A stretch of DNA of 64,000 nt. Source: Solidesulfovibrio carbinolicus. GTDB lineage: Bacteria; Desulfobacterota; Desulfovibrionia; Desulfovibrionales; Desulfovibrionaceae. This document shows positions 3,224 to 57,861 of the stretch, piece after piece. The DNA is taken from assembly GCF_004135975.1 (NCBI RefSeq), contig NZ_CP026538.1:930001-994000 (forward strand), given 5' to 3'. The position numbers and the translations under genes are program-made. How positions within the stretch are numbered: position 1 is the first letter of the stretch; each line of letters opens with the position of its first letter. Under the pieces are notes generated by a model, which ran no database searches, had not been told where the DNA came from, and was given only the letters and a program-made list of their open reading frames with translations.

Positions 3224-3300
3224 GCAGTCCGCTTGCCAGTGCGTCCGGGCACGCCCTTTTTCTTGAAGTAACCCGCCGCATCCTGCAAACGCCGCGAGGC

Positions 3301-3407
3301 TGGTGTCGCGTCCACGAAAGCGCAGAGGGCATTCCGTCGGCAATGTGCTCAAATTATGATCTTTTTCTTAGCAAATACTATCGTATTTTGTCAGGAACGC
3401 CACACTA
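3301..3407 (-). repeat. TA-flanked MITE-like repeat, copy 1
   Basis: About 107 bp. Read on the minus strand it begins TAGTGTGGCGTTCC, carries the AATACGATAGTATT palindrome near that end, and finishes with GGACGCGACAC. Its terminal TAG (3407-3405) is the stop codon of the DUF362 gene. It belongs to the seven-copy family described in the findings. Confidence 0.75.
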
Positions 3408-4532
3408 GACGCGCACCAGTTCGTATTCCGGCCGGCCCAGGCCCACGGCCGCGCCGTGGACAAAGGTCATGTCGCCGCGCGTCCACTGCCACAGGGCGGT
3501 GAACTTGTCCTCGCCCGAGTGGATGCCGTGTTCGAGCTTGCACTCGGGACAGGCCGCCTGCTCGTTGACCAGATCCAGGCAGGCCTTGTCCAGGGCCACC
3601 GGATCGGACGAGGCCAGAAAGCCGATGTCCGGCACTATGGGCGCGTCGGACCAGGGCACGCAGTCGCAGTCCGGGGTGACGTTGACCAGGAAGTTGACAT
3701 AGCCCACCCGGCCGGTTTTGCCGGTCACCGCGCCCAGGGCGTATTCCACCATGCGCTCCATGAAGGGCACGATCTCGGTGCCCCAGTCGATGCTCATGGC
3801 CTTTTTGGGGCACACGGTCAGGCATTCGCCGCAGCCGATGCAGGCCGCCTTGTCGATGACCGCCTTTTTCCCTTTCATTGCGGCTGCGCCCACCGGGCAG
3901 ACGGCCACGCACTCGGCGCAGCCGATGCACTTCTTGGGTTCCACCACAAACCGTACGCAATGCTGGTCCTGCTTGCCGGCCCGGGGGGCGCAGCCCATGG
4001 CCAGGTTTTTGACCGCGCCGCCAAATCCGGCCAGCTCGTGGCCCTTGAAGTGGGACAGAACCAGCAGGGAGTCGGCCCGCACGATGTCGCCGGCGATCTT
4101 GACCTTCTGGAAATGCTTGCCGCTAATGGGCACTTCCAGGACGTTGGTGCTGTCCAGGCCGTCGGCGATGATGACCGGCGCGCCGAGCACGGCGTAGTCG
4201 AAGCCGTGTTCCACGGCCGTGAGCAGATGGTCCACGGCGTTGTGGCGGCTGCCGGAATAGAGGGTGTTGGTGTCGGTGACAAAGGGCCGCCCGCCTTGGG
4301 CCTTGACCAGCTCCACCACGGCCCGGGCGTAGGTGGGGCTGATGTGGGTGTCGCAGCCGCGCTCGCCGAAGTGGAGCTTTATGGCCGTGAGGTCGCCTTT
4401 CTGGACCACGTCGCCAAAGCCGGCGGCCTCGAAGAGTTTCTGGATCTTGGCGGTGCGGTTGCGGCCGGCGGCCCGGGCGCGCAGGTCGGCGAAATAGACC
4501 TTGGCCGGCTGGGGGGCTTCGTCTTGGGTCAT
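3405..4532 (-). CDS. DUF362 domain 4Fe-4S protein
   Basis: A 375-residue cytoplasmic protein of the DUF362 family, which is often annotated as ferredoxin-like; the reaction is unknown. Residues 1-190 form the DUF362 core (KLHFGERG, VTDTNTLY, LSHFKGHELAGFGGA). Two 4Fe-4S motifs follow, CIGCAECVAVCP at about 202-212 and CIGCGECLTVCP at about 231-241. The start is fixed by ATGA overlap with the stop of the upstream MscS gene, so the two are probably translationally coupled. Its own stop is the first triplet of a dispersed repeat. An electron-transfer role is likely from the clusters; substrate unknown. Confidence 0.85.
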   Translation of the reverse strand: MTQDEAPQPAKVYFADLRARAAGRNRTAKIQKLFEAAGFGDVVQKGDLTAIKLHFGERGCDTHISPTYARAVVELVKAQGGRPFVTDTNTLYSGSRHNAVDHLLTAVEHGFDYAVLGAPVIIADGLDSTNVLEVPISGKHFQKVKIAGDIVRADSLLVLSHFKGHELAGFGGAVKNLAMGCAPRAGKQDQHCVRFVVEPKKCIGCAECVAVCPVGAAAMKGKKAVIDKAACIGCGECLTVCPKKAMSIDWGTEIVPFMERMVEYALGAVTGKTGRVGYVNFLVNVTPDCDCVPWSDAPIVPDIGFLASSDPVALDKACLDLVNEQAACPECKLEHGIHSGEDKFTALWQWTRGDMTFVHGAAVGLGRPEYELVRV

Positions 4533-6979
4533 GGCGTGGTTCCTTTGTCGGGTTCGTCGCCCGTCCGGGCCGGGCGGCCGGCCAGGCGTTGTTCCAGGGC
4601 GCTTAAGCGCTCGTTTACGGCGGCCAGCAGCCGGGCGGTCTCGGCGAAGTGGGGCGCGGCGAGATTCTCCAGGGCCGGGGCCGTGCGCAGATGCAGGTCG
4701 GCCTGGGGAAAGGCGATCTCGATGCCGGCTTCCCGGAACAGCCGGTCGATGGCCGTGCGGATCGTGGACAGGGAGCTGACGGCGCTGTTGACGTCGGCCA
4801 GCCAGACCCGCAGCTTGAAGTCCAGGGTGCTGGCCCCGAAGTCCCAGTGGAGCACGGCGGGCGGGGGATTTTGCAGCACGGCCGGACACTGCCCGGCGGC
4901 GGCCAGAAGCAGCTCGCGCACTTTGTCCGTGTCCGAGCCGTAGGCCACGCCGATGTTGACGTCGCGGCGCACGGTCGGGTCCTTGTGGCTCCAGTTGACG
5001 ATGCGCCCGGACACCAGCTCGGAATTGGGCACGAACACCGTGGCGTTTTCCCGGGTGAGCACCTCGGTGTTGCGGATGTTGACCTCCTTGACCACGCCCT
5101 CGCCCTCGCCGATCTGGATGGTGTCTCCGGCCTGGATGGAACGGCCAAAGAGCAGGATCAGGCCGCTGACGAAGTTGTTGACCGTGGTTTGCAGGCCAAA
5201 GCCGATGCCCACCGACAGGCCGCCGGCCACCACGGCGATGCTGGTCAGCGACAGCCCCAGCACCGACAGGGCGAAGACGAGATAGAGTCCCCACCACAGA
5301 TACGTGTTGATGGTCAAAAGCGTGGCCTTGGCCCCGCGCTCCACGGCCCGCCGCCGGCCGGCGATTTCGGCGACAAAGGCCGCCGACAGGGCGATGGCGG
5401 CCCGGGCCACGTAGAAGCCCAGCAGCAACAGCACGAGCTTTTGCAGGCTGATGCCCACGGATTCGATCCGGGCCTCGGTGTTGAGGACTTCCAGGAACAC
5501 GTTTTCGCCGCCGTACTGGTTGGAGAGCAGCCACAGGAACAAAAACAGGCTGGCCATGAAAAAGAAGGGAAAGCCCGCGCCGGTGAGAATGCCGAGATAG
5601 ATGGGCGGCCGGCCATGGCTGTGGCGCATTTCCAGGATGCCGAGAAACCGGGTCAGCAGGGCGGCGCTGCGCAGGGCCAGGGCCACGTAGAAAAGCCCCG
5701 AGGCGCACAGGATGGCCGTCTGGGGCAGACCCAGCAGGGAGCAGACGGCCAGGGGCGGCAGGGCCAGGGCCAGGATGCGGGGAATGGCCCGTTCCAGGGG
5801 CATGTCCTTGGGCGTATCCCGGCAGCGCCGCCAGAAGGCCCGGGCGGAGAGAAGCAGCACCACGGCCATGATCGGGCCGGTGAGGGTCTCGGGGTAGCGG
5901 CCGGCCTCCAGCATCAGCCCCAGGGCGAAAAGCCGCCAGGTGGGCCACAACACGGCCGGCCGGCGCAGGTCCCGGTCGCGCAGGGCCAGACGCGAGAGGC
6001 AGACCAAGGCGGCGGCGTAGAGGATCTCGCCCACGGAAATAAGCTGGGTGAAAAGGAAAAACGGCGCATACTGGGCCAGCACCATGAAAAACGCCCCGCC
6101 GGCGGCGCAGGCCCCGCCCCGGGTCACATACTGCCGGCCCGTGGCCGACAAGCCGTGCTGGCCGGCGTAGCGCCGCACGGCCAGAAACGCGCCGAACACC
6201 AGGACGGCGGCCAAAAGGCCCATGGCCGCGCCGTGCAGGAGCGCGGCCGGCATCCCCGGGGTGTCCAGAAGCTCCAGACACAGGCCGGCCCAGAGCTTCC
6301 AGTCCTCCACATCCTCTTCGACGTAGCGCGGATAGGAGGAGGAAAAAATCGTCGGGTTGGCGTCGGTGTAATAGGTCTTCCAGGCCGGGGCCAGGGCGGT
6401 CTGAAGTTCGTTTTCGGCGGCGTCGAGCTGCTCGCTCAGGTCGCGCAGGGGGGCGGTTTCGGCGGCCAGGCCGTCGCGCAGGGCGAGGACTTGCTGACTG
6501 AGCTCGGCGATGGATTCCTGGATCGGGGCCAGGGCGTCGCGAAAACGCTCGGGGATTTCGTGGCGGGTGATTTCGGCCAGCTTGCCGCGATACGATTCGA
6601 GCAGGGCGACGTTCTGTTCCAGGGAGGCCCAGGTTTGCTGGGGCCGTTGGGCCAGGTGGTCAACGTCCTGGCGCAGGCGGGCGATGCCGGCCAGCACGGT
6701 CCGTATCTCCCAGGGGTCCGTGGCCGTGGCCTGCCACAGGGCGAGCCTAGCCCGGTCGCGCAGGAGGCGTTCCTGCTCGGCCGCGAAGCTGGCGGCCTCG
6801 GCGGCCCGGCGGGCGTTGAAGGCGGCCAGCCGGCCGCGCACGATCTTGTCCTGGCGGTCCAGGGCTTCGAGGACCAGACTCCAGGATTGGTCGGAGTCGC
6901 CGGAAACCGCCGGGACGGCGGCAAAAGCCCCGGCCGGGACGGCCAGCAGCAGCCAGACGGCAACCAGAATGCTTTTCAT
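4529..6979 (-). CDS. Large mechanosensitive channel protein, MscS/MscK-like
   Basis: An 816-residue inner-membrane protein. A signal-like N-terminus is followed by a charged, probably coiled-coil periplasmic region (about 30-200), then about ten hydrophobic helices (about 260-590) and a C-terminal MscS domain with the pore-lining helix and beta domain (GLSVGIGFGLQTTVNNFVSG, then GDTIQIGEGEGVV). This matches the long MscK/YbdG-type architecture that releases solutes on hypo-osmotic shock. I chose the ATG at 6979 because GGGCGG lies 8 bases upstream; 6985 is an alternative. It overlaps the DUF362 gene by 4 bases, an unusual pairing with no obvious functional link. Confidence 0.85.
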   Translation of the reverse strand: MKSILVAVWLLLAVPAGAFAAVPAVSGDSDQSWSLVLEALDRQDKIVRGRLAAFNARRAAEAASFAAEQERLLRDRARLALWQATATDPWEIRTVLAGIARLRQDVDHLAQRPQQTWASLEQNVALLESYRGKLAEITRHEIPERFRDALAPIQESIAELSQQVLALRDGLAAETAPLRDLSEQLDAAENELQTALAPAWKTYYTDANPTIFSSSYPRYVEEDVEDWKLWAGLCLELLDTPGMPAALLHGAAMGLLAAVLVFGAFLAVRRYAGQHGLSATGRQYVTRGGACAAGGAFFMVLAQYAPFFLFTQLISVGEILYAAALVCLSRLALRDRDLRRPAVLWPTWRLFALGLMLEAGRYPETLTGPIMAVVLLLSARAFWRRCRDTPKDMPLERAIPRILALALPPLAVCSLLGLPQTAILCASGLFYVALALRSAALLTRFLGILEMRHSHGRPPIYLGILTGAGFPFFFMASLFLFLWLLSNQYGGENVFLEVLNTEARIESVGISLQKLVLLLLGFYVARAAIALSAAFVAEIAGRRRAVERGAKATLLTINTYLWWGLYLVFALSVLGLSLTSIAVVAGGLSVGIGFGLQTTVNNFVSGLILLFGRSIQAGDTIQIGEGEGVVKEVNIRNTEVLTRENATVFVPNSELVSGRIVNWSHKDPTVRRDVNIGVAYGSDTDKVRELLLAAAGQCPAVLQNPPPAVLHWDFGASTLDFKLRVWLADVNSAVSSLSTIRTAIDRLFREAGIEIAFPQADLHLRTAPALENLAAPHFAETARLLAAVNERLSALEQRLAGRPARTGDEPDKGTTP

Positions 6980-26276: not shown

Positions 26277-26422
26277 GGGAAGCCTCCGGTGGCGCTTGGC
26301 GGGTTTGGCCCGCCCTTGGGGATGCCGCGCCCGGCGGCTGCCGTCAAGGGGCCGGCCGGCCTTGTTTTCCCGGGCCGGGGGCGCTACAGGTGGCCGGCCT
26401 ATTTCATATACGGGAGAACGCC

Positions 26423-28822
26423 ATGGCCGCGCCTGCCTTGACCCAACGAGAGCTTATCGCCCACGAGCACGCCCTGCGCGACGTGTTCTCCCGGTTTCTG
26501 GCCTTTAAAACCCACAGCCTCTATTTTCCCAAGCCCGGCGACGCCCTGGCCGAGGCCTTCGGGCCGGACCTGGGGCTGGCGGCGCATTTGCCGACCGAGC
26601 GCAAGATCATGATCCCCCTGGCCGAGGACGGCCGGCTGCTGGGCGTCTTCGTGGCCCGTGGGGCCAGCCTTGGCGGGCGGCGGGCGCTTTTATCCCTGCT
26701 CCCCCGCATCGCCGCCATGGCGCTCGACCAGTTGCACCTGCGTCTGGCCGCCGCGTCCGACCCGGTCACCGGGCTGGCCACCGGGGAGGCGCTGTTGGCG
26801 ACGCTTTCCCGGGAGATCGAGGCCGTGCAGCAGCGCATCCTGCCTGGCGGCGACAGTCTGGGCGATTTGCCCCTGTCCGCCTGCCGGGGCGGTTTCGGCC
26901 TCATCGTGGCCGACCTCGACCGGTTCAGCCGGGTGGCCGGCCGGTACGGGTTTCTCATGGCCGAGGACGTGCTGGCCCGGGCCGGGGCGGCCGTGACCGG
27001 GGCTACGCCGGAAGGCGGGCTGGCCGCCCGGCTCCACGACGATCTTTTCGCGGTCTTTTTGCCGGGTGCTTCGGCCGCGCGCTGCCGGGAAGCGGCCGAG
27101 GCCTTGCTGGCCGAACTGGGGCGCACGCCGTTTCCCATTCCGGCCACGGGCGAATCGCTGTCGCTGACCGCCAGCGCCGGCTGCGTGAGCTATCCCCAGG
27201 ACGTGCGCGGCGGCCAGTTCGCGGCCTCGCCGGCCGAGCAGGCCAGGCTGCTTGTCCACAAGGCCAAAAAGGGTCTGGCCGTGGCCAAGGACCTGGGCCG
27301 CGACCAGGCCATGGCCTACAGCCGCATCCTGGCCGAGGGCGGGGTGGTGCTCGAAACCCTGCCGCTCGCCCGGGCGGCCGTGAGCCTTGGCCGCTGGGTG
27401 GACGCCGAGCCGGGCCAGCGGTTTCTGGTCTGGTCGCCGCGCCTGGAGCGCGAGGTGGACGTGCGCGGGGCTGACGGCGGACGCCTCAGCGGCCGCAGCC
27501 CGGCGGCGGTCAAGGGCGAGATCGTCCTGGCCGAGGTGGTGGAGGACATGGCCTTTGCCGAGGTCCTCCATCTGGCCGACCCTCATCTGCCCCTGGAGCC
27601 CGGCGACCGACTGGCCCTTATTCCCGAGGCCGAGGAGGGCGGCGATGCCGCCGCCACCGGCGCGCCCCGGCGCGATCCGGCCTCGGGCCTGTATCCCTTC
27701 CGTGATTTTCAACGCGCCATCGCCCAGGCACGGGAGAAAAATCCCGTTTTTTCGCAAGTTCTCGTACAATTGGCCGATCCGCCGGCCAGGCGTCGGGCCG
27801 GCCGGCCGGCCGAGGCAGACATGGCCGAAGCGGCCGGGCTGTGCCGCCGGGTGTTTGGCCACGAGGCCGTAGGCGGGCGCTTTAGCGCTTCCAAACTGGT
27901 CTTTTTCGTGCCCGGGATCGACCCCGCCGCCCTGGCCGAACCGGCCGGCCGGCTCCTGGCGGCCCTGCGGGCCGAGCTGGAGCTCGACGCCGCCGTGGGC
28001 GTGGCCGGCCATCCCTGCCTGGACCATGCCCGAAGCGATGTGGCCGAGAACTGCCGCAAGGCCCTGGACCATGCCCTGTTGTTGCCGACCGGCCCGCGTC
28101 TGGCCGTGTTCGACTCCCTGTCGCTCACCGTCAGCGGCGACCGCCATTTCGCCATCGGCGACGTCTACGCCGCCATGGAAGAATACAAGCAGGCCTTACT
28201 CGCTGACGAAAAAAACGCCCTGGCCCGCAATTCGCTGGGCATCTGCCTGGCCCGGCTGGGCCGGCTGCCCCAGGCCCGGGCCGAATTCGAGGGGGTCATC
28301 CGGGGCGAACCCAAAAACGCCATGGCCCTGTATAACCTTGGCTGCGTGCTGATGCGCCAGGGCGAGGCCGCCGCCGCCCGGGCCGCGTTTCAGAAGTGCC
28401 TGCGGGCTGACCCGGCCCATGTGTCGAGTCTGCTGCGCCTGGGCCGCATGGCCGAGGAGAACCGACGTTTTGCCGAGGCCCTCAAATATTACCGCCGGGC
28501 CTTGGCCGCTGGCGGCCCGGCCGCCCCGACCCTGCGCCATCTGGCCCGGCTGGCATTTGCTCGCGGCCAGCTCGACGAGGCCCGGGAACACCTGCATCAG
28601 GCCCTTTTGCGCGATCCCAAGGACGCCTTTGCCTTGCAGCTCATGGCCCGGGTCTACCTGACCGAGGGCGAGGACCCGGCCATTGCCGAGGCCATGGCCC
28701 GGCAGGCCGTGGCCCTGCGGCCCGAACGCCGGGAATTCTGGGTGGAGCTGTCCCGGGCCCTGGCCGCCCAGGGCCGCCACGAGGAAGCCCGCGACGCCGC
28801 CGCCCGGGCCGAAGGCGTCTAG
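26423..28822 (+). CDS. Degenerate GGDEF protein with C-terminal TPR repeats
   Basis: 799 residues, no membrane helix. An N-terminal domain (1-110) leads into a GGDEF-like domain (about 113-290; DPVTGLATGEALL, GLIVADLDRF) in which the active-site loop is HDDLF (205-209), so cyclase activity is not expected. A second, more degraded copy spans about 415-565 (RRDPASGLYPFRDF, VGGRFSASKLVFF). The rest (about 575-795) is at least six TPR units (NSLGICLARLGRLPQARAEF, YNLGCVLMRQGEAAAARAAF). It probably acts as a c-di-GMP-independent scaffold. The start has GGGAG upstream. Its TAG stop is the first triplet of a dispersed repeat. Confidence 0.75.
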   Translation: MAAPALTQRELIAHEHALRDVFSRFLAFKTHSLYFPKPGDALAEAFGPDLGLAAHLPTERKIMIPLAEDGRLLGVFVARGASLGGRRALLSLLPRIAAMALDQLHLRLAAASDPVTGLATGEALLATLSREIEAVQQRILPGGDSLGDLPLSACRGGFGLIVADLDRFSRVAGRYGFLMAEDVLARAGAAVTGATPEGGLAARLHDDLFAVFLPGASAARCREAAEALLAELGRTPFPIPATGESLSLTASAGCVSYPQDVRGGQFAASPAEQARLLVHKAKKGLAVAKDLGRDQAMAYSRILAEGGVVLETLPLARAAVSLGRWVDAEPGQRFLVWSPRLEREVDVRGADGGRLSGRSPAAVKGEIVLAEVVEDMAFAEVLHLADPHLPLEPGDRLALIPEAEEGGDAAATGAPRRDPASGLYPFRDFQRAIAQAREKNPVFSQVLVQLADPPARRRAGRPAEADMAEAAGLCRRVFGHEAVGGRFSASKLVFFVPGIDPAALAEPAGRLLAALRAELELDAAVGVAGHPCLDHARSDVAENCRKALDHALLLPTGPRLAVFDSLSLTVSGDRHFAIGDVYAAMEEYKQALLADEKNALARNSLGICLARLGRLPQARAEFEGVIRGEPKNAMALYNLGCVLMRQGEAAAARAAFQKCLRADPAHVSSLLRLGRMAEENRRFAEALKYYRRALAAGGPAAPTLRHLARLAFARGQLDEAREHLHQALLRDPKDAFALQLMARVYLTEGEDPAIAEAMARQAVALRPERREFWVELSRALAAQGRHEEARDAAARAEGV

Positions 28823-28869
28823 TGTCGCGTCCGCAATACGGTCGTATTTTTTAAAGGGACGCGACACGA
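28820..28869. repeat. TA-flanked MITE-like repeat, copy 2 (short form)
   Basis: Only 50 bp: TAGTGTCGCGTCC, the AATACGGTCGTATT palindrome, then GGACGCGACAC. The right flank is GA instead of TA. The left TAG is the stop codon of the TPR protein gene. The internal 50-55 bp of longer copies are absent. Confidence 0.75.
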
Positions 28870-29236
28870 GATTCGCCGAGCTTGCGCTTGCGGCGAATGC
28901 GCGCACGACGTTGCGAGGTTGAGGGGCATGACGTCGCTGGCCGTAACGCCGCGCGGCCCACGCAGGGCGTTGCGTCCTGACCCTGCCCGCCCATTTTCGC
29001 CTGGCCGGCGTATCCTTCCCGCGCCAACGCGCGACGTCTCCCTGTGCGCCGCATCCTTGGGTCGGCCCTGGCCGGCTCTCCGGCGCGCCACGGCCCCGAC
29101 CGCCAAGCGGCTTGCCAGAGTTGATTTTAGTGGCCTTCTCGCAAAAAAGCCCTTACGGATAGCATCGTGCCGGGACGCCTCCACGTCGTGCCCTGGCTCG
29201 CCCCTTTACCTCGCACTGGGAGATAACAGAACCGGC
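28823..29236. other. Intergenic region between TPR protein and acyltransferase
   Basis: 414 bases. The first 47 are the short MITE-like repeat. The rest is GC-rich with many short inverted repeats. A frame open from 28919 into the acyltransferase has an Arg/Pro-rich translation typical of non-coding GC-rich DNA, so I do not count it. No clear promoter. Confidence 0.4.
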
Positions 29237-33025: not shown

Positions 33026-33053
33026 GGCAACGTCCTTTGGCGGCTGGCGGCCC

Positions 33054-33157
33054 GAGTGTCGCGTCCACGGAAACGCATGCGATTTTCGTGGACGACAGGC
33101 TAAGGCCATAAAGTGATCTTAACCAATACGCTCGTATTATTAAGTGACGCGGCCCTA
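33054..33157 (-). repeat. TA-flanked MITE-like repeat, copy 3
   Basis: 104 bp; on the minus strand TAGGGCCGCGTCACTTAATA, AATACGAGCGTATT, and GGACGCGACACT at the far end. The first TAG (33157-33155) is the stop of the receiver-like gene. It sits between the last gene of the ORP-like cluster and the MBL gene. Confidence 0.7.
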
Positions 33158-33520
33158 GCCGATGGCGTCCAGGGCCGCCAGCAGTCGGGCGGCTTCGGCC
33201 GGTCCCGGGGCCGGGGGCAGGCGCAGGAGGATGCCCAGGCCCTCGCCGATGTCGTGAAAGGCTTCGTCGGACAGGGACGAGATCACGGCCGAGGTGACCC
33301 GGGCGTCGATCTCCAGCAGTGCGGCCACCAGGGCAAAGGCGTCGCTGTCGGGCAGGTCGCTGTCGACCACGCACAGGTCCGGGGCTTTCTCCCGCACGGC
33401 CGAGGCAGTGGCGGCGGCCGTGGGCAGGCAGTCCACGGCGCAGCCGGCCTGGGCAAGGGCGGCGATGAACGGGGCCAGGGTCTCGGGATCGGCGGAAGCC
33501 ACGCAGATATGGCGCATCAT
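33155..33520 (-). CDS. Receiver-like single-domain protein
   Basis: 121 residues resembling a response-regulator receiver domain: strand ICVASADPE, phospho-acceptor-like Asp in LCVVDSDLPDSD (about 53), Ser in AVISSLSD. The usual acidic pair is reduced to one Asp, and the conserved Lys after strand 5 is replaced by Arg (LLRLPPAP), so normal phosphorylation is doubtful. It overlaps the stop of the FmdB-type gene by ATGA and so belongs to the ORP-like cluster's end. Its TAG stop is supplied by a repeat element. It may serve as a dedicated regulator or adaptor of the cluster. Confidence 0.6.
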   Translation of the reverse strand: MMRHICVASADPETLAPFIAALAQAGCAVDCLPTAAATASAVREKAPDLCVVDSDLPDSDAFALVAALLEIDARVTSAVISSLSDEAFHDIGEGLGILLRLPPAPGPAEAARLLAALDAIG

Positions 33521-33771
33521 GCTCCCGCCTTGCCGCAGCAGGAGCCGGGACCGGCGCAACCGCTGGCCTGGCCGGGCCGTGAGCCGCAGCAGCCGTGATC
33601 CGAAGGACCGGGCAGGGACGGACCGGCCTTGCCGGTCAGGCTGCTGGTGGCCGCCATGAGCTTTCGGGCCGGCGCGCCGCAGACGGGGCAGGTCGGCGTA
33701 TCGGTGGCCCCCGGCGCGATGGTTTCGCCGGCATAGGAACAAGCGTCGCAAACAATCTCATAAATCGGCAT
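33517..33771 (-). CDS. FmdB-type zinc-ribbon protein
   Basis: 84 residues. The N-terminal MPIYEIVCDACSYAGE and CPVCGAPARKLM form the FmdB/putative regulatory zinc ribbon; the C-terminal tail is rich in cysteine and glycine (HGCCGSRPG, GSCCGKAGA), which could bind a second metal or cluster. FmdB-like proteins are small regulators or metal chaperones of uncertain function. GGAG lies 7 bases before the start. It overlaps the receiver-like gene downstream and lies behind a GC-palindrome repeat, 157 bases after the NifX-like gene. Confidence 0.75.
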   Translation of the reverse strand: MPIYEIVCDACSYAGETIAPGATDTPTCPVCGAPARKLMAATSSLTGKAGPSLPGPSDHGCCGSRPGQASGCAGPGSCCGKAGA

Positions 33772-38790: not shown

Positions 38791-38823
38791 GTCAAAACTG
38801 GCAGGCCCGAAGCGGGGCGGCTG

Positions 38824-38924
38824 TAGCGTTCCTTAACAAATACGGTAGTATTTAGAAGAAAAACCTCTGGTTCTCATGTCTTGTCTACGCAATGCCTTAT
38901 GCGCTTTTCGCGGACGCGCCACTA
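38824..38924 (+). repeat. TA-flanked MITE-like repeat, copy 4
   Basis: 101 bp: left end degraded (TAGCGTTCC), AATACGGTAGTATT, right end CTTTTCGCGGACGCG then CCACTA. Unlike most copies, it is the right end whose TAG (38924-38922, minus) is the neighbouring gene's stop codon. Confidence 0.7.
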
Positions 38925-39521
38925 GGACATGACCCGGGCTTCGCGGGCCACTTCGTGGGCAAACTCGTCGATCCACCAGATGCGGTCGGCCCGGCACTGG
39001 AGGTCGGTGGAGACGCCGTTTTTAAAGACGAGCAGCTCAAAGCGCTTGTTTTTCTCGGTGATGTACTCCACGGCGTCGAGGAGGTCGCTGTCGCCGGAAG
39101 AGAGAATGAGCGTGTCGTAGTTCTCGATATGGGTCAGCGCCAGGGTGGCCAGGCCCACATCGACGCCCTTTTGCTGTTCGCGGCTCAAACGGTGGGCCCG
39201 GTCGTTGGGGCAGGTGACGGGCACCTTGCGGCGGCACTGCTCGCAGTAGAGTTCGTTGATTTCGCTGGTGCGCAGTTCGTAGAGCTTGGTGATGATTTTC
39301 GGTCCCTGGGGCGGGGCGGAGCGCATCCAGTTGTAGAAGGCGATCTGGGATTCCGGGGTGGGATGGGGGATGGAATTGAGATAATAGGCGCGCCAGATGG
39401 GGGTTTCGGCTTCCAGTTTGTTGCGCAGTTTGACATAGTCAATACTATATTCCCTACTGAAATAGGATTGCCCCCGGTACATGTAGCCAGCGTCAATGAG
39501 CCACAATCGGCGATTGGTCAT
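38922..39521 (-). CDS. NYN-domain (LabA/DUF88) nuclease-like protein
   Basis: 199 residues. The PIN-like NYN fold shows acidic residues in LIDAGYMYR (about 7-15), KGVDVGLATLAL (about 119-130) and LSSGDSDLLDAVEYI (about 142-156), the expected metal-binding set of single-strand ribonucleases. A zinc ribbon-like insert CEQCRRKVPVTC lies at about 93-104. Likely acts in RNA metabolism; targets unknown. The start follows AGGA. Its stop codon lies in a repeat element. It is divergent from the Csd4-like gene. Confidence 0.8.
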   Translation of the reverse strand: MTNRRLWLIDAGYMYRGQSYFSREYSIDYVKLRNKLEAETPIWRAYYLNSIPHPTPESQIAFYNWMRSAPPQGPKIITKLYELRTSEINELYCEQCRRKVPVTCPNDRAHRLSREQQKGVDVGLATLALTHIENYDTLILSSGDSDLLDAVEYITEKNKRFELLVFKNGVSTDLQCRADRIWWIDEFAHEVAREARVMS

Positions 39522-40015: not shown

Positions 40016-41407
40016 ATGCGTTTGCTCACGGCTCTGCTTGTCCTACTTTTCGCCGCCACGGCCGCGCCCTGCGGCAACCTCGACTTTACCCTGCACAAGC
40101 TCGACTCCGGCCGCCCCGGACCGACCATCCTGGTCATCGGCGGCATCCAGGGCGACGAGCCAGGCGGGTTTTCGGCGGCGGCCCTGCTGGTTTCCCATTA
40201 TAAGATCAATTCCGGCGCGGTCTGGGTGGTGCCCAACCTCAATTTCTTAAGCATCATCCGCAGTTCGCGCGGCGTGTACGGCGACATGAACCGCAAGTTC
40301 GCCGACCTTGATCCGGGCGACCCGGAATACGCCGCCGTACAGAAGATCAAGGCCATCATCCGCGACGAGAAGGTCGATGCGGTACTGCATCTGCACGACG
40401 GCTGGGGCTACTACAGCCCGACCGTGGTCAGCGAATGGCAAAATCCCCTGCGCTGGGGCCAGTCGGTCATCATCGACCAGGACAGCGCCGCCGCGCCGCG
40501 CTTCGGCAATCTCCTGGAGCTGGCCGGCCGGGCCGTGGCCGCTGCCAACGAACATCTCTACGAGCCGTTGCATGCCTACCACGTCAAAAACACCCACACC
40601 AAGGACTTAAGCAGCGAGACGGCCAAGGAAATGGCCAAGACGCTGACCTATTTCGCCATCGGCCAGGGCAAGCCGGCCTTTGGCATCGAAGGCAGCAAGA
40701 ATCTGCCGCCGCCCATGCGGTCGTATTACCATCTGCGGGTCATCGAGTCGTTTTTCAAGTCCTTTGGCCTGGATTTCGAACGCACCTTCGAACTGGGCGC
40801 GCCGCAGGTGGCCGAGGCCCTGCAACAAAACATGGCTGTGTCGTTTTTTGGCGACAAGGTGTTTCTCGATCTGCGAAACGCCCGGGAGCGGCTGCGCTTT
40901 ATTCCCCTCAAAAAGGACAGCGCCGTGGAGTACCGGCCGTCCAGCCCCATCCTGGCCCTGGTTTCTGCCGACAAAAGCCTCAAGGTGTATTTCGGCAACA
41001 CCAACGTCACCGAACTCGACCCGCAGTTCGTGGAGTTTGACGCGAGCCTGGCCGCCGTGCCCATGGACATCGACGGCGCGCGCCGGGAGGTGCCCTTCGG
41101 CCGGGTGGTGGACGTGCGGCAGGGCTTTTCCGTGGGCAAGGGCGCGGACTACCGGGTCAACGTCATCGGCTTTTCCAAGCCGGGCCTGACCGACGAAGCC
41201 GATACGGTCATCGGCCGGGGGGAGCTGAAAAAGGAATTTTCCGTGGACAAGGCCGGCCTCGTCTACCGGGTGGAAGTCTACCGGGGCGAGAAGTTTTGCG
41301 GCATGATCCTGGCCAATTTCGTGGCTGATGCGCCGCGCCTGGCCGCGACTGACGACAAGCTCTTGCGAAAGCTCAAAAAGACCGGCGAAATCACCCTCGG
41401 CCGGTAG
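40016..41407 (+). CDS. Csd4/Pgp1-like peptidoglycan DL-carboxypeptidase
   Basis: 463 residues. A signal peptide (LLTALLVLLFAATAAPCG) precedes an M14-type peptidase domain and a C-terminal region of beta character. The zinc site is IGGIQGDEPGG with Gln45 and Glu48 and HLHDGWGYY with His127. The unusual Gln in place of the standard His is the hallmark of Helicobacter Csd4, whose ligands are Gln46, Glu49 and His128. Csd4/Pgp1 trim tripeptides in the cell wall and set helical or vibrioid cell shape, which suits a vibrioid Desulfovibrio-type cell. It probably acts in the periplasm. Its TAG stop is the first triplet of a MITE-like repeat. Confidence 0.8.
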   Translation: MRLLTALLVLLFAATAAPCGNLDFTLHKLDSGRPGPTILVIGGIQGDEPGGFSAAALLVSHYKINSGAVWVVPNLNFLSIIRSSRGVYGDMNRKFADLDPGDPEYAAVQKIKAIIRDEKVDAVLHLHDGWGYYSPTVVSEWQNPLRWGQSVIIDQDSAAAPRFGNLLELAGRAVAAANEHLYEPLHAYHVKNTHTKDLSSETAKEMAKTLTYFAIGQGKPAFGIEGSKNLPPPMRSYYHLRVIESFFKSFGLDFERTFELGAPQVAEALQQNMAVSFFGDKVFLDLRNARERLRFIPLKKDSAVEYRPSSPILALVSADKSLKVYFGNTNVTELDPQFVEFDASLAAVPMDIDGARREVPFGRVVDVRQGFSVGKGADYRVNVIGFSKPGLTDEADTVIGRGELKKEFSVDKAGLVYRVEVYRGEKFCGMILANFVADAPRLAATDDKLLRKLKKTGEITLGR

Positions 41408-41512
41408 TGTCGCATCCCTTGAAAAAAAGCGATAGTATTTTTTAAGAAAAACAAATGGTTTTAGCTCGTTGACTACAAAATACCATATGCGCTTTTCGCG
41501 GACGCGACACTA
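41405..41512 (+). repeat. TA-flanked MITE-like repeat, copy 5 (best preserved)
   Basis: 108 bp from TAGTGTCGCATCC to GGACGCGACACTA, with both TA flanks intact. Internal GATAGTATTTTTTAAG near the left and GCGCTTTTCGCGGACGCG at the right. The left TAG is the stop of the Csd4-like gene. Confidence 0.8.
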
Positions 41513-43891: not shown

Positions 43892-43941
43892 TATGGGGTA
43901 TGGTGTCCTGCCTGGGGATGGCCCAGGACAGGGGGTCGTTT

Positions 43942-44042
43942 TCCTGTCGCGTCCGCGAAAAGCGTGTGCGTTGTTCGCGGGGAATGCGATGAAACCAGTA
44001 ATTTCTAAAAAAATACTATCGTATTTTTCAGGGGTGACGCTA
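43942..44042 (-). repeat. TA-flanked MITE-like repeat, copy 6
   Basis: About 101 bp; minus strand TAGCGTCACC, AATACGATAGTATT with flanking T/A runs, far end CTTTTCGCGGACGCGACAGG. The TAG (44042-44040) is the stop of livG. It separates livG from livF. Confidence 0.75.
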
Positions 44043-44810
44043 GTCGTCCTCGCCGAGGTAGGCCTTGATGACTTCGGGATTGGCCTGGATTTCCTCGGGC
44101 GTGCCGGCGGCCAGGGGATGGCCGAAATGCAGCACCGTCACATAGTCGCTCACGCTCATGACCAGCTCCATGTCGTGTTCGACCAGGCCCACGGCCACGC
44201 CGCGGCGGTCGCGGATGGCCCGGATGAGGACGCCCAGTTCGGCGGTTTCCTTGGAATTGAGCCCGGCGGCCGGTTCGTCGAGAAGCAGGAGCTTGGGCGA
44301 GGCGGCCAAGGCCCGGGCCATTTCCAGCAGCCGCTGCTTGCCGTAGGGCAGATCCCCGGCCGGGGCGTTGGCGAGGTCGGCCAGCCCGACGAACTCCAGG
44401 CAGTCCAGGGCCGCCTCCCGGCATTCCCGCTCGGCCCGGCGGAAACCGGGCGTGCGCAACAGGCTTGCGGCCACGGAATAGCGCGTGAGCGCATGCCGGC
44501 CGGCCATGACGTTTTCCAGCACCGACATGGAGGTGAAGACTTCGAGGTTCTGGAAGGTGCGCACCACGCCGGCTTCGGCCCGCTTGTGGGGCGGCAGGCC
44601 CGAGATGTCGGCTCCGCCGAGCAGCACCGCGCCGGAGGTCAGGGGCACCATGCCGGTGATGGCGTTTAGAAGCGTGGTCTTGCCCGCGCCGTTGGGGCCA
44701 ATCAGTGCCGTCACCGTGCCCGGGGCGATGGCGAAGTCGGCGTCGGTGAGGGCATGGATGCCGCCGAAACGGACGGTGGCGGCCGTAACGTCCAGCAGGG
44801 CGGCGGTCAT
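44040..44810 (-). CDS. livG: Branched-chain amino acid-type ABC transporter ATPase LivG
   Basis: 256 residues. Walker A GPNGAGKTTLLNA (about 37-49), signature LPYGKQRLLEMARAL (about 156-170), Walker B LLLLDEPAAGLNS (about 176-188), and the extra LivG insert before the signature. It overlaps the stop of LivM by four bases (ATGA), so translation is coupled. Its TAG stop lies at the boundary of a repeat element that splits it from LivF. Confidence 0.9.
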   Translation of the reverse strand: MTAALLDVTAATVRFGGIHALTDADFAIAPGTVTALIGPNGAGKTTLLNAITGMVPLTSGAVLLGGADISGLPPHKRAEAGVVRTFQNLEVFTSMSVLENVMAGRHALTRYSVAASLLRTPGFRRAERECREAALDCLEFVGLADLANAPAGDLPYGKQRLLEMARALAASPKLLLLDEPAAGLNSKETAELGVLIRAIRDRRGVAVGLVEHDMELVMSVSDYVTVLHFGHPLAAGTPEEIQANPEVIKAYLGEDD

Positions 44811-57295: not shown

Positions 57296-57299
57296 GGTC

Positions 57300-57402
57300 T
57301 CGTGTCGCGTCCGCCAAACGCGCCTGGGCGATTGGCAGGCAACAGCGTGAAGCCTTGTGTTGTCCCAGCAATGCTCTCGTCTTGCTTGGGAGCGCGAGCC
57401 TA
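57300..57402 (-). repeat. TA-flanked MITE-like repeat, copy 7 (diverged)
   Basis: About 103 bp. The plus-strand left end is GTGTCGCGTCC; the right end is diverged (TAGGCTCGCGCTCC on the minus strand). The TAG (57402-57400) is the stop of the CBS gene. The AT-rich palindrome is largely lost. Confidence 0.55.
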
Positions 57403-57861
57403 AAGATTTTTCACCAGAAATTGCAAAATCATGCGCCGGCTGATCTCGCCCATCAGCACCCCGTTGGGATCGATGACCGGCACGGCCGGAATGCCGCGCT
57501 CCACAATGAGTTCCCCGGCCATGACGAAGAGATCCTCGGGATGGGCAAAAGGATAGTCGGTGTCCATGAGTTCGCCCACCGGCGTGTCCGAACTGGCGGC
57601 CATGTTGCGGCGCAGCGCGTCCAAAAGCGCCTCCCGGCCGTCGAGATGGCCGGCCCGGGCCTGGGACGACACCTCGGGCGAGACGATAAGCGAGAGAAAC
57701 CTGTGGATGGTCACCACCCCGAGCAACCGGTCGCAGTGGTCCACTACGTACGTGTTGCGAAAGGTGTTGTTCATGCCGCCGTACCAGATGAGCACGTGCC
57801 CGACCGGCGCTTCGGGCCGTACCTTGATGACCGTGGTGCGCATGATGTCGGCGATCTGCAT
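57400..57861 (-). CDS. CBS-domain pair protein
   Basis: 153 residues forming two CBS domains: about 1-60 (IADIMRTTVIKVRPEAPVGH, then RNTYVVDHCDRLLGVVTIHR) and about 95-150 (GELMDTDYPFAHPEDLFVMA, then GIPAVPVIDPNGVLMGEISR). CBS pairs bind adenine nucleotides such as AMP, ATP or SAM and regulate a partner. No catalytic domain is attached, so it is a stand-alone sensor. The start MQIADIMRTT has GAGG just upstream. Its stop abuts a repeat element. Confidence 0.85.
   Translation of the reverse strand: MQIADIMRTTVIKVRPEAPVGHVLIWYGGMNNTFRNTYVVDHCDRLLGVVTIHRFLSLIVSPEVSSQARAGHLDGREALLDALRRNMAASSDTPVGELMDTDYPFAHPEDLFVMAGELIVERGIPAVPVIDPNGVLMGEISRRMILQFLVKNL

Follow-up and report, generated by a model that had tools for sequence, protein, structure and literature searches.

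The DNA analysed here, 64 kb in all and referred to as the window, carries a short repeat at 41405..41512 whose first three letters are the stop codon of the gene beside it, and six more repeats of the same kind that also end on stops. Why should an interspersed element finish so precisely where a gene finishes? We put a probability of about 0.9 on the reading that these repeats form a MITE family that an IS630-family transposase moves in trans into the TA of CTAG, often at stop codons.

Seven copies in the window

The claim of the original prediction that every copy ends on a TAG stop was borne out in the window: all seven copies were found at the places given for them, and one end of each was the TAG stop of a predicted gene. 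The central copy consists of TA (41405-41406), a 104-bp element running from GTGTCGC to GCGACAC (41407-41510) and a second TA (41511-41512), its left end being the TAG stop at 41405-41407. The features are as follows.

41405..41512, + strand: MITE copy of the finding, whole-length profile match, 124.7 bits
40016..41407, + strand: predicted gene of 463 aa whose stop is the left end of copy 41405
3300..3408, - strand: MITE copy, 95.5 bits; right end is stop 3405-3407 of gene 3405-4532 (- strand)
28819..28870, + strand: short derivative, perfect 11-bp ends; left end is stop 28820-28822 of gene 26390-28822 (+ strand)
33053..33158, - strand: MITE copy, 79.5 bits; right end is stop 33155-33157 of gene 33155-33742 (- strand)
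38818..38925, + strand: MITE copy, 94.7 bits; right end is stop 38922-38924 of gene 38922-39521 (- strand)
43941..44043, - strand: MITE copy, 70.6 bits; right end is stop 44040-44042 of gene 44040-44810 (- strand)
57299..57403, - strand: old MITE copy, 61.2 bits; right end is stop 57400-57402 of gene 57400-57861 (- strand)

Six of the seven were whole-length matches to the family profile (61-125 bits), several of these six having themselves contributed to the alignment behind the profile. Copy 28820-28869, the seventh, is a short form in which both 11-bp ends are perfect; within 28819-28870 it measures 46 bp from GTGTCGC to GCGACAC and is an almost perfect palindrome, and its pattern had no other match in 14 genomes of the genus. 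A common architecture had been proposed for all seven copies, and it held only in part: the short form has the palindrome without the CTTTTCGCGG segment, and several copies, such as 38824 and 57300, do not have GTGTCGCGTCC at both ends. The proposed TA at both ends was present in the window in copy 41405 alone, and genome-wide in 13 of 100 copies, including one truncated match. CTAG occurs 17 times in the 64-kb window, against about 70 in dinucleotide shuffles, and six of the 17 are ends of the MITE.

A MITE family across the genome and the genus

A profile built from 31 copies returned 116 matches at E <= 1 in the same genome and 100 at E <= 1e-3; the latter form the genomic set of 100 used below, with weaker matches and the 28820 short form left out. 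The consensus runs from CTAGTGTCGCGTCC through the palindrome CTTAAAAAATACGATAGTATTTTTTAAG (one C is common to both) and a spacer to GCGCTTTTCGCGGACGCGACACTAG. With a length of 104 bp, no transposase, 11-bp inverted ends and 100 copies at E <= 1e-3, the family has the features of a MITE. By BLAST (E <= 1e-6) it occurred in 13 of the 14 genus genomes, and in none of 45 from outside the genus. The exact end motif was found in two genomes listed as Solidesulfovibrio magneticus, in Desulfovibrio sp. DV and in one Desulfovibrionaceae MAG, among the genomes that can be named.

Genome G007 also holds, at the site of copy 1549080 (locus L167), a second type of MITE with the same outer ends and a different interior (GTGTCGCGTTCGGGAAATGCC...), lying between the stop and a copy shared with our genome. 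At the site of copy 3620973 (loci L042, L138 and L148) the insertion is common to Desulfovibrio sp. DV / G013, with the gene flank 98% identical, and G005 is empty there, though it is the closer genome at most other sites compared. Either horizontal transfer or precise loss would account for this patchy insertion.

A likely parent element

A DDE_3 search of the 14 genus genomes gave matches in four, and the complete insertion sequences (ISs) among these matches were those of G009 and G011. This IS is about 1.1 kb long, has GTGTYGCGTCC ends as in the MITE and reads TA-GTGTTGCGTCC...GGACGCGACAC-TA; in G009 and G011 the left end is GTGTTGCGTCC and the right end GTGTCGCGTCC or GTGTTGCGTCC, with TA at both ends of both complete copies. 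Its transposase, of 346 aa, matched the IS630 model NF033545 with 236.7 bits (cut-off 100) and PF13358 with 90.1 (cut-off 28.6). Thus, an IS with the same ends, as the original prediction anticipated, does exist in the genus: it belongs to the IS630 family and is flanked by TA. On its sequence, it is likely to be the parent of the MITE, and a transposase of this family (Tc1/mariner-like, DDE) would mobilise the MITE in trans via the shared ends.

Identical IS ends occur at many contig ends of G009 (L032, L185 and L191-L204), a sign of recent multicopy activity. C preceded TA at 13 of the 13 distinct G009 junctions fetched, a count that leaves out three further listed G009 fragments; four of the 13 coincide with predicted stops, and the gene behind one of those stops is short and weak. 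For the G011 copy, a predicted stop coincides with one end, and at one junction the C is absent (ATA). One G009 copy has itself inserted in the end of a MITE-like sequence. In the genome of the window, DDE_3 and IS-protein searches found no intact transposase; the IS protein had only a 26-aa relic (77%) and a distant 31% DDE_3 fragment there, so mobilisation within that genome is something that we infer.

Most copies end exactly on a predicted stop codon

We tabulated stops over 80 fetched genome regions plus the window, 602 kb in total, using genes predicted by a codon-usage script rather than curated annotation, on which all stop counts depend. A predicted stop lay exactly at an end of 69 of the 100 genomic copies, 68 at one end and one at both; this last copy was kept apart from the 68 single-stop copies, whose stops were TAG in 64 cases, TAA in three and TGA in one. 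Where a gene stop lay no more than 30 bp from a copy end, its offset was 0 for 70 ends and non-zero 16 times. The 31 copies without an exact stop end comprised two with a stop at most 3 bp away, one wholly within a predicted gene, and a remainder that was intergenic or overlapped a gene end. The association proposed from seven copies therefore extends genome-wide, with most copies abutting stops, and the excess at stops over a random-TA expectation was large (odds ratio ~14).

Other genomes gave a similar picture with the same gene caller. An exact stop end was found at 11 of 20 loci chosen by the exact end motif, locus L044 being a twelfth on inspection, its ends having been misplaced by the script. 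In G005 and G007 together, 14 of 27 copies were on a stop (10/17 and 4/10, respectively). These counts are not fully independent, because some of the copies are orthologues of those in our genome or of each other.

The target is CTAG

The target of insertion is CTAG, which is narrower than any TA. With copies excluded, TA occurred in the background at 6050 coding, 1672 intergenic and 270 stop positions, and CTAG at 48 coding, 47 intergenic and 46 stop positions (46/141 at stops). Outside coding sequence, stops thus made up 14% of TA sites (270/1942) versus 49% of CTAG sites (46/93). CTAG was the least frequent N-free tetranucleotide in the 589-kb background of this GC-rich genome. Stop codons are a main landing place because CTAG is this rare and because one third of the CTAGs in that background are C-TAG stops. 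C stood before 25% of background TA sites and before 47 of 141 background TAG stops; the tetranucleotide at the stop end was CTAG in 51 of the 68 single-stop copies.

Measured against CTAG outside coding sequence, the excess at stops was only modest (69/99 versus 46/93, Fisher p = 0.005), so the coincidence with stops is mostly explained by CTAG targeting. In the G005 and G007 regions, which had CTAG at 9 stop, 14 coding and 15 intergenic positions, the corresponding excess was not significant (14/27 versus 9/24, p = 0.40); against every CTAG it was (14/27 versus 9/38, p = 0.03). Insertions inside genes were presumably purged, adding to the bias and probably supplying the remaining excess.

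Could the elements instead enter any TA, with selection alone removing the copies that damage genes? IS630/Tc1 elements do use TA, according to the available text of PMC2170065, and most element-free sites contain it. However, C preceded TA at all 13 distinct G009 IS junctions fetched versus 25% in the background, and of the 1942 TA sites that are not in coding sequence only 270 are stops, a far smaller share than 69 of 100 copies. On the background counts and these junctions we rejected a plain TA model against the CTAG model, and we regard insertion without a CTAG preference as very unlikely. Of the mechanism first proposed, TA insertion with duplication by an IS630/Tc1-type element stands, and CTAG replaces any TA as its target. 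The idea that TAG is regenerated from TAA or TAG is likewise right as to the rebuilding, but the stop would normally have been TAG already, since the target is CTAG. We also considered a 4-bp duplication of CTAG, giving CTAG...CTAG flanks as described for MITEPsy1 in the accessible part of PMC3189936; the IS630 parent and the CTA/TAT junctions of the G011 copy favour TA.

No sign of a host role

Elements at gene ends might be kept there because they serve the host as transcription terminators, 3'-UTR structures or insulators between convergent genes. Their location at 3' ends fits such roles, and for one copy the single-stranded DNA is strongly folded (z -6.7). For the stems formed by the inverted repeat and the palindrome, three of five covariation measures exceeded nearly all shuffles, the observed value being reached by 0 of 500 shuffles for further pair types, 18 of 500 for changes on both sides and 20 of 500 for the covariation score; relatedness alone can produce such values, and slid controls were equal in pairs changed on both sides. 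Against a host role, RNAalifold returned four pairs, none with double changes, paired cells made up 89.5% versus 89.0% in shuffles, and Rfam gave no match in the window. A functional RNA is so far unsupported, though some covariation measures exceed most shuffles.

Occupied and unoccupied C-TAG stops were alike in the share that were convergent (25/70 versus 15/43) and in the gap to the next gene (p = 0.25), and 16 of the 70 occupied stops lay in gaps shorter than 20 bp. With no measurable difference in gene context from unoccupied C-TAG stops, a terminator or convergent-gene insulator is also unsupported. Thus, we found no sign of a host role in gene context or RNA fold, and we give retention for such a role very little credence.

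Element-free sites in relatives

If CTAG is the target, relatives without the element should keep a single TA at the site. We sought relatives for 14 young stop copies, and 12 of these had a relative spanning the site. In nine of the 12 the relative has CTAG at the stop (341048, 313953, 3812082, 3422529, 2731670, 2564462, 3620973, 4135422 and 2911360), and it reads TTAG at 3256495 and ATAA at 971404. The last is the copy at 41405 in the window; in relative G012 the element-free counterpart of gene 40016..41407 terminates at the same codon (TAA). For 2564462 and 2731670, further relatives have TTAG or ATAG, and some of the relatives' matches at 3256495 and 313953 are shared insertions rather than element-free sites. 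At the twelfth site, 1549080, both element-free relatives read CAAG, with no stop at that codon. The readable copies that are not on stops gave mixed results: the relative has CTAA at the site of 2875003, the element-free relatives have no TA at that of 1548153, contrary to the model, and 2911465 is the outer copy of a stack. The predicted empty site, having one TA and a stop at the matching codon, was therefore recovered for 11 of the 12 stop copies that could be tested; the prediction failed at 1549080 (CAAG) and at the non-stop copy 1548153 (no TA).

These sites make it scarcely credible that elements landed within genes and cut the reading frame short with their terminal TAG: a gene that ran into the element in the right frame would indeed end on that TAG, and 1549080 fits (its two relatives have CAAG there and TGA two codons on, as read from the alignment), but a stop was at the same codon in an element-free relative at 11 of 12 testable sites, and genes entering in the other frames would stop inside the element, yet only six stops lay at +1 to +30 versus 70 at 0.

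Insertion into the TA of CTAG with TA duplication is consistent with the single TA seen at element-free sites, and its course would be cut-and-paste, as in the rest of the IS630 family. Because both ends of the element start with G, TA plus G rebuilds TAG and the end of the protein is kept, as the element-free sites show.

The far end decays

On the gene side the stop would be maintained by selection; the far-side CTAG decays, most often to CTCG. The far-end tetranucleotide of the 68 single-stop copies was CTCG in 19, CTAG in nine, CTGG in five and CGAG in four, with others in the rest. Far-end CTAG was present in 7 of 20 copies in the youngest age band, 2 of 21 in the next and 0 of 27 in the oldest.

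In most cases the change turned A into C at the base that adjoins the element (an example is window positions 28868-28869, GA), and it was asymmetric, with CTCG in 19 of the 68 copies versus CGAG in four. Over the element itself, in the 30 youngest copies of at least 95 bp, A-to-C was common, at 0.05 per A/T site versus 0.063 for A-to-G. The TA base touching the element was altered in 10 and 13 of the 30 youngest copies at the two ends, stop ends included, and is a substitution hot spot. The far-end change probably arose after insertion, because recent IS copies keep an intact TA at the junctions read. At three shared sites (2564462, 3620973 and 3845907) the altered far end is common to the species.

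The same stop is hit again

Four stacks of copies occur at stops, and the younger copy is on the gene side in all four, one case being weak. At 3256495 and 2911360, a relative (G012 and G005, respectively) has an older, decayed element alone at the stop, and in our genome a young copy separates the stop from the old one. At 1549080 it is G007 that has a different, same-ended element between the stop and the shared element. In the weak case, 3420812, an old copy of 23.2 bits (E 0.022) adjoins the far side of the younger copy. A possible stack at L095 (E 0.85) was left out of the count. A further stack in G007 (L225) is not on a predicted stop.

In these four cases, one of them weak, the stop-side CTAG stayed usable and was hit again, building stacks with the younger element beside the gene. 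This raises the possibility, to which we lean slightly, that stop codons give a CTAG-directed transposon lineage a safe harbour that renews itself, the same stop being reused and layered tails forming without change to the protein. Each insertion would rebuild the C-TAG stop because the element starts with G, and selection would keep that one CTAG while the genome otherwise loses CTAG, so that the same stop could be used again.

Implications and comparison with known systems

A known CTAG preference and the word usage of the genome would together aim the transposon at a near-neutral stop codon without any protein that recognises genes. This offers a clear, testable case of transposon niche formation in bacteria. 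It is also a warning for annotation, as many gene ends in the genus would be built from transposon ends.

By the title of a 1991 paper of Tenzen and Ohtsubo, IS630 and an IS630-associated transposon reportedly prefer the TA in 5'-CTAG-3'. The present family resembles IS630 of Shigella in its IS630-family transposase, TA duplication and CTAG target, and differs in being a 104-bp element without a transposase, present in about 100 copies that are mostly on gene stops.

RUP of Streptococcus pneumoniae is, in the available text of PMC3049150 and PMC2229807, a 107-bp MITE with IS630-Spn1-like ends, TA sites and about 110 copies. The same text places its insertions near or in IS elements and gives it stops in all six frames, and does not describe a seat on host stops. 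A literature search found no report of a bacterial MITE on host stop codons, including in the accessible parts of PMC2170065, PMC3049150, PMC2229807 and PMC3189936. ISY100 of Synechocystis, a Tc1/mariner/IS630 element, moves in vitro by cut-and-paste into TA with TA duplication, and the portion of PMC2170065 that describes this does not mention a CTAG or stop-codon bias. MITEPsy1 of Pseudomonas syringae, as set out in the available portion of PMC3189936, is a 100-bp MITE with CTAG among its targets; unlike the family described here, it is ISPsy2-like (marked 'IS5?'), makes a 4-nt duplication of CTAG or YTAA and has other ends.
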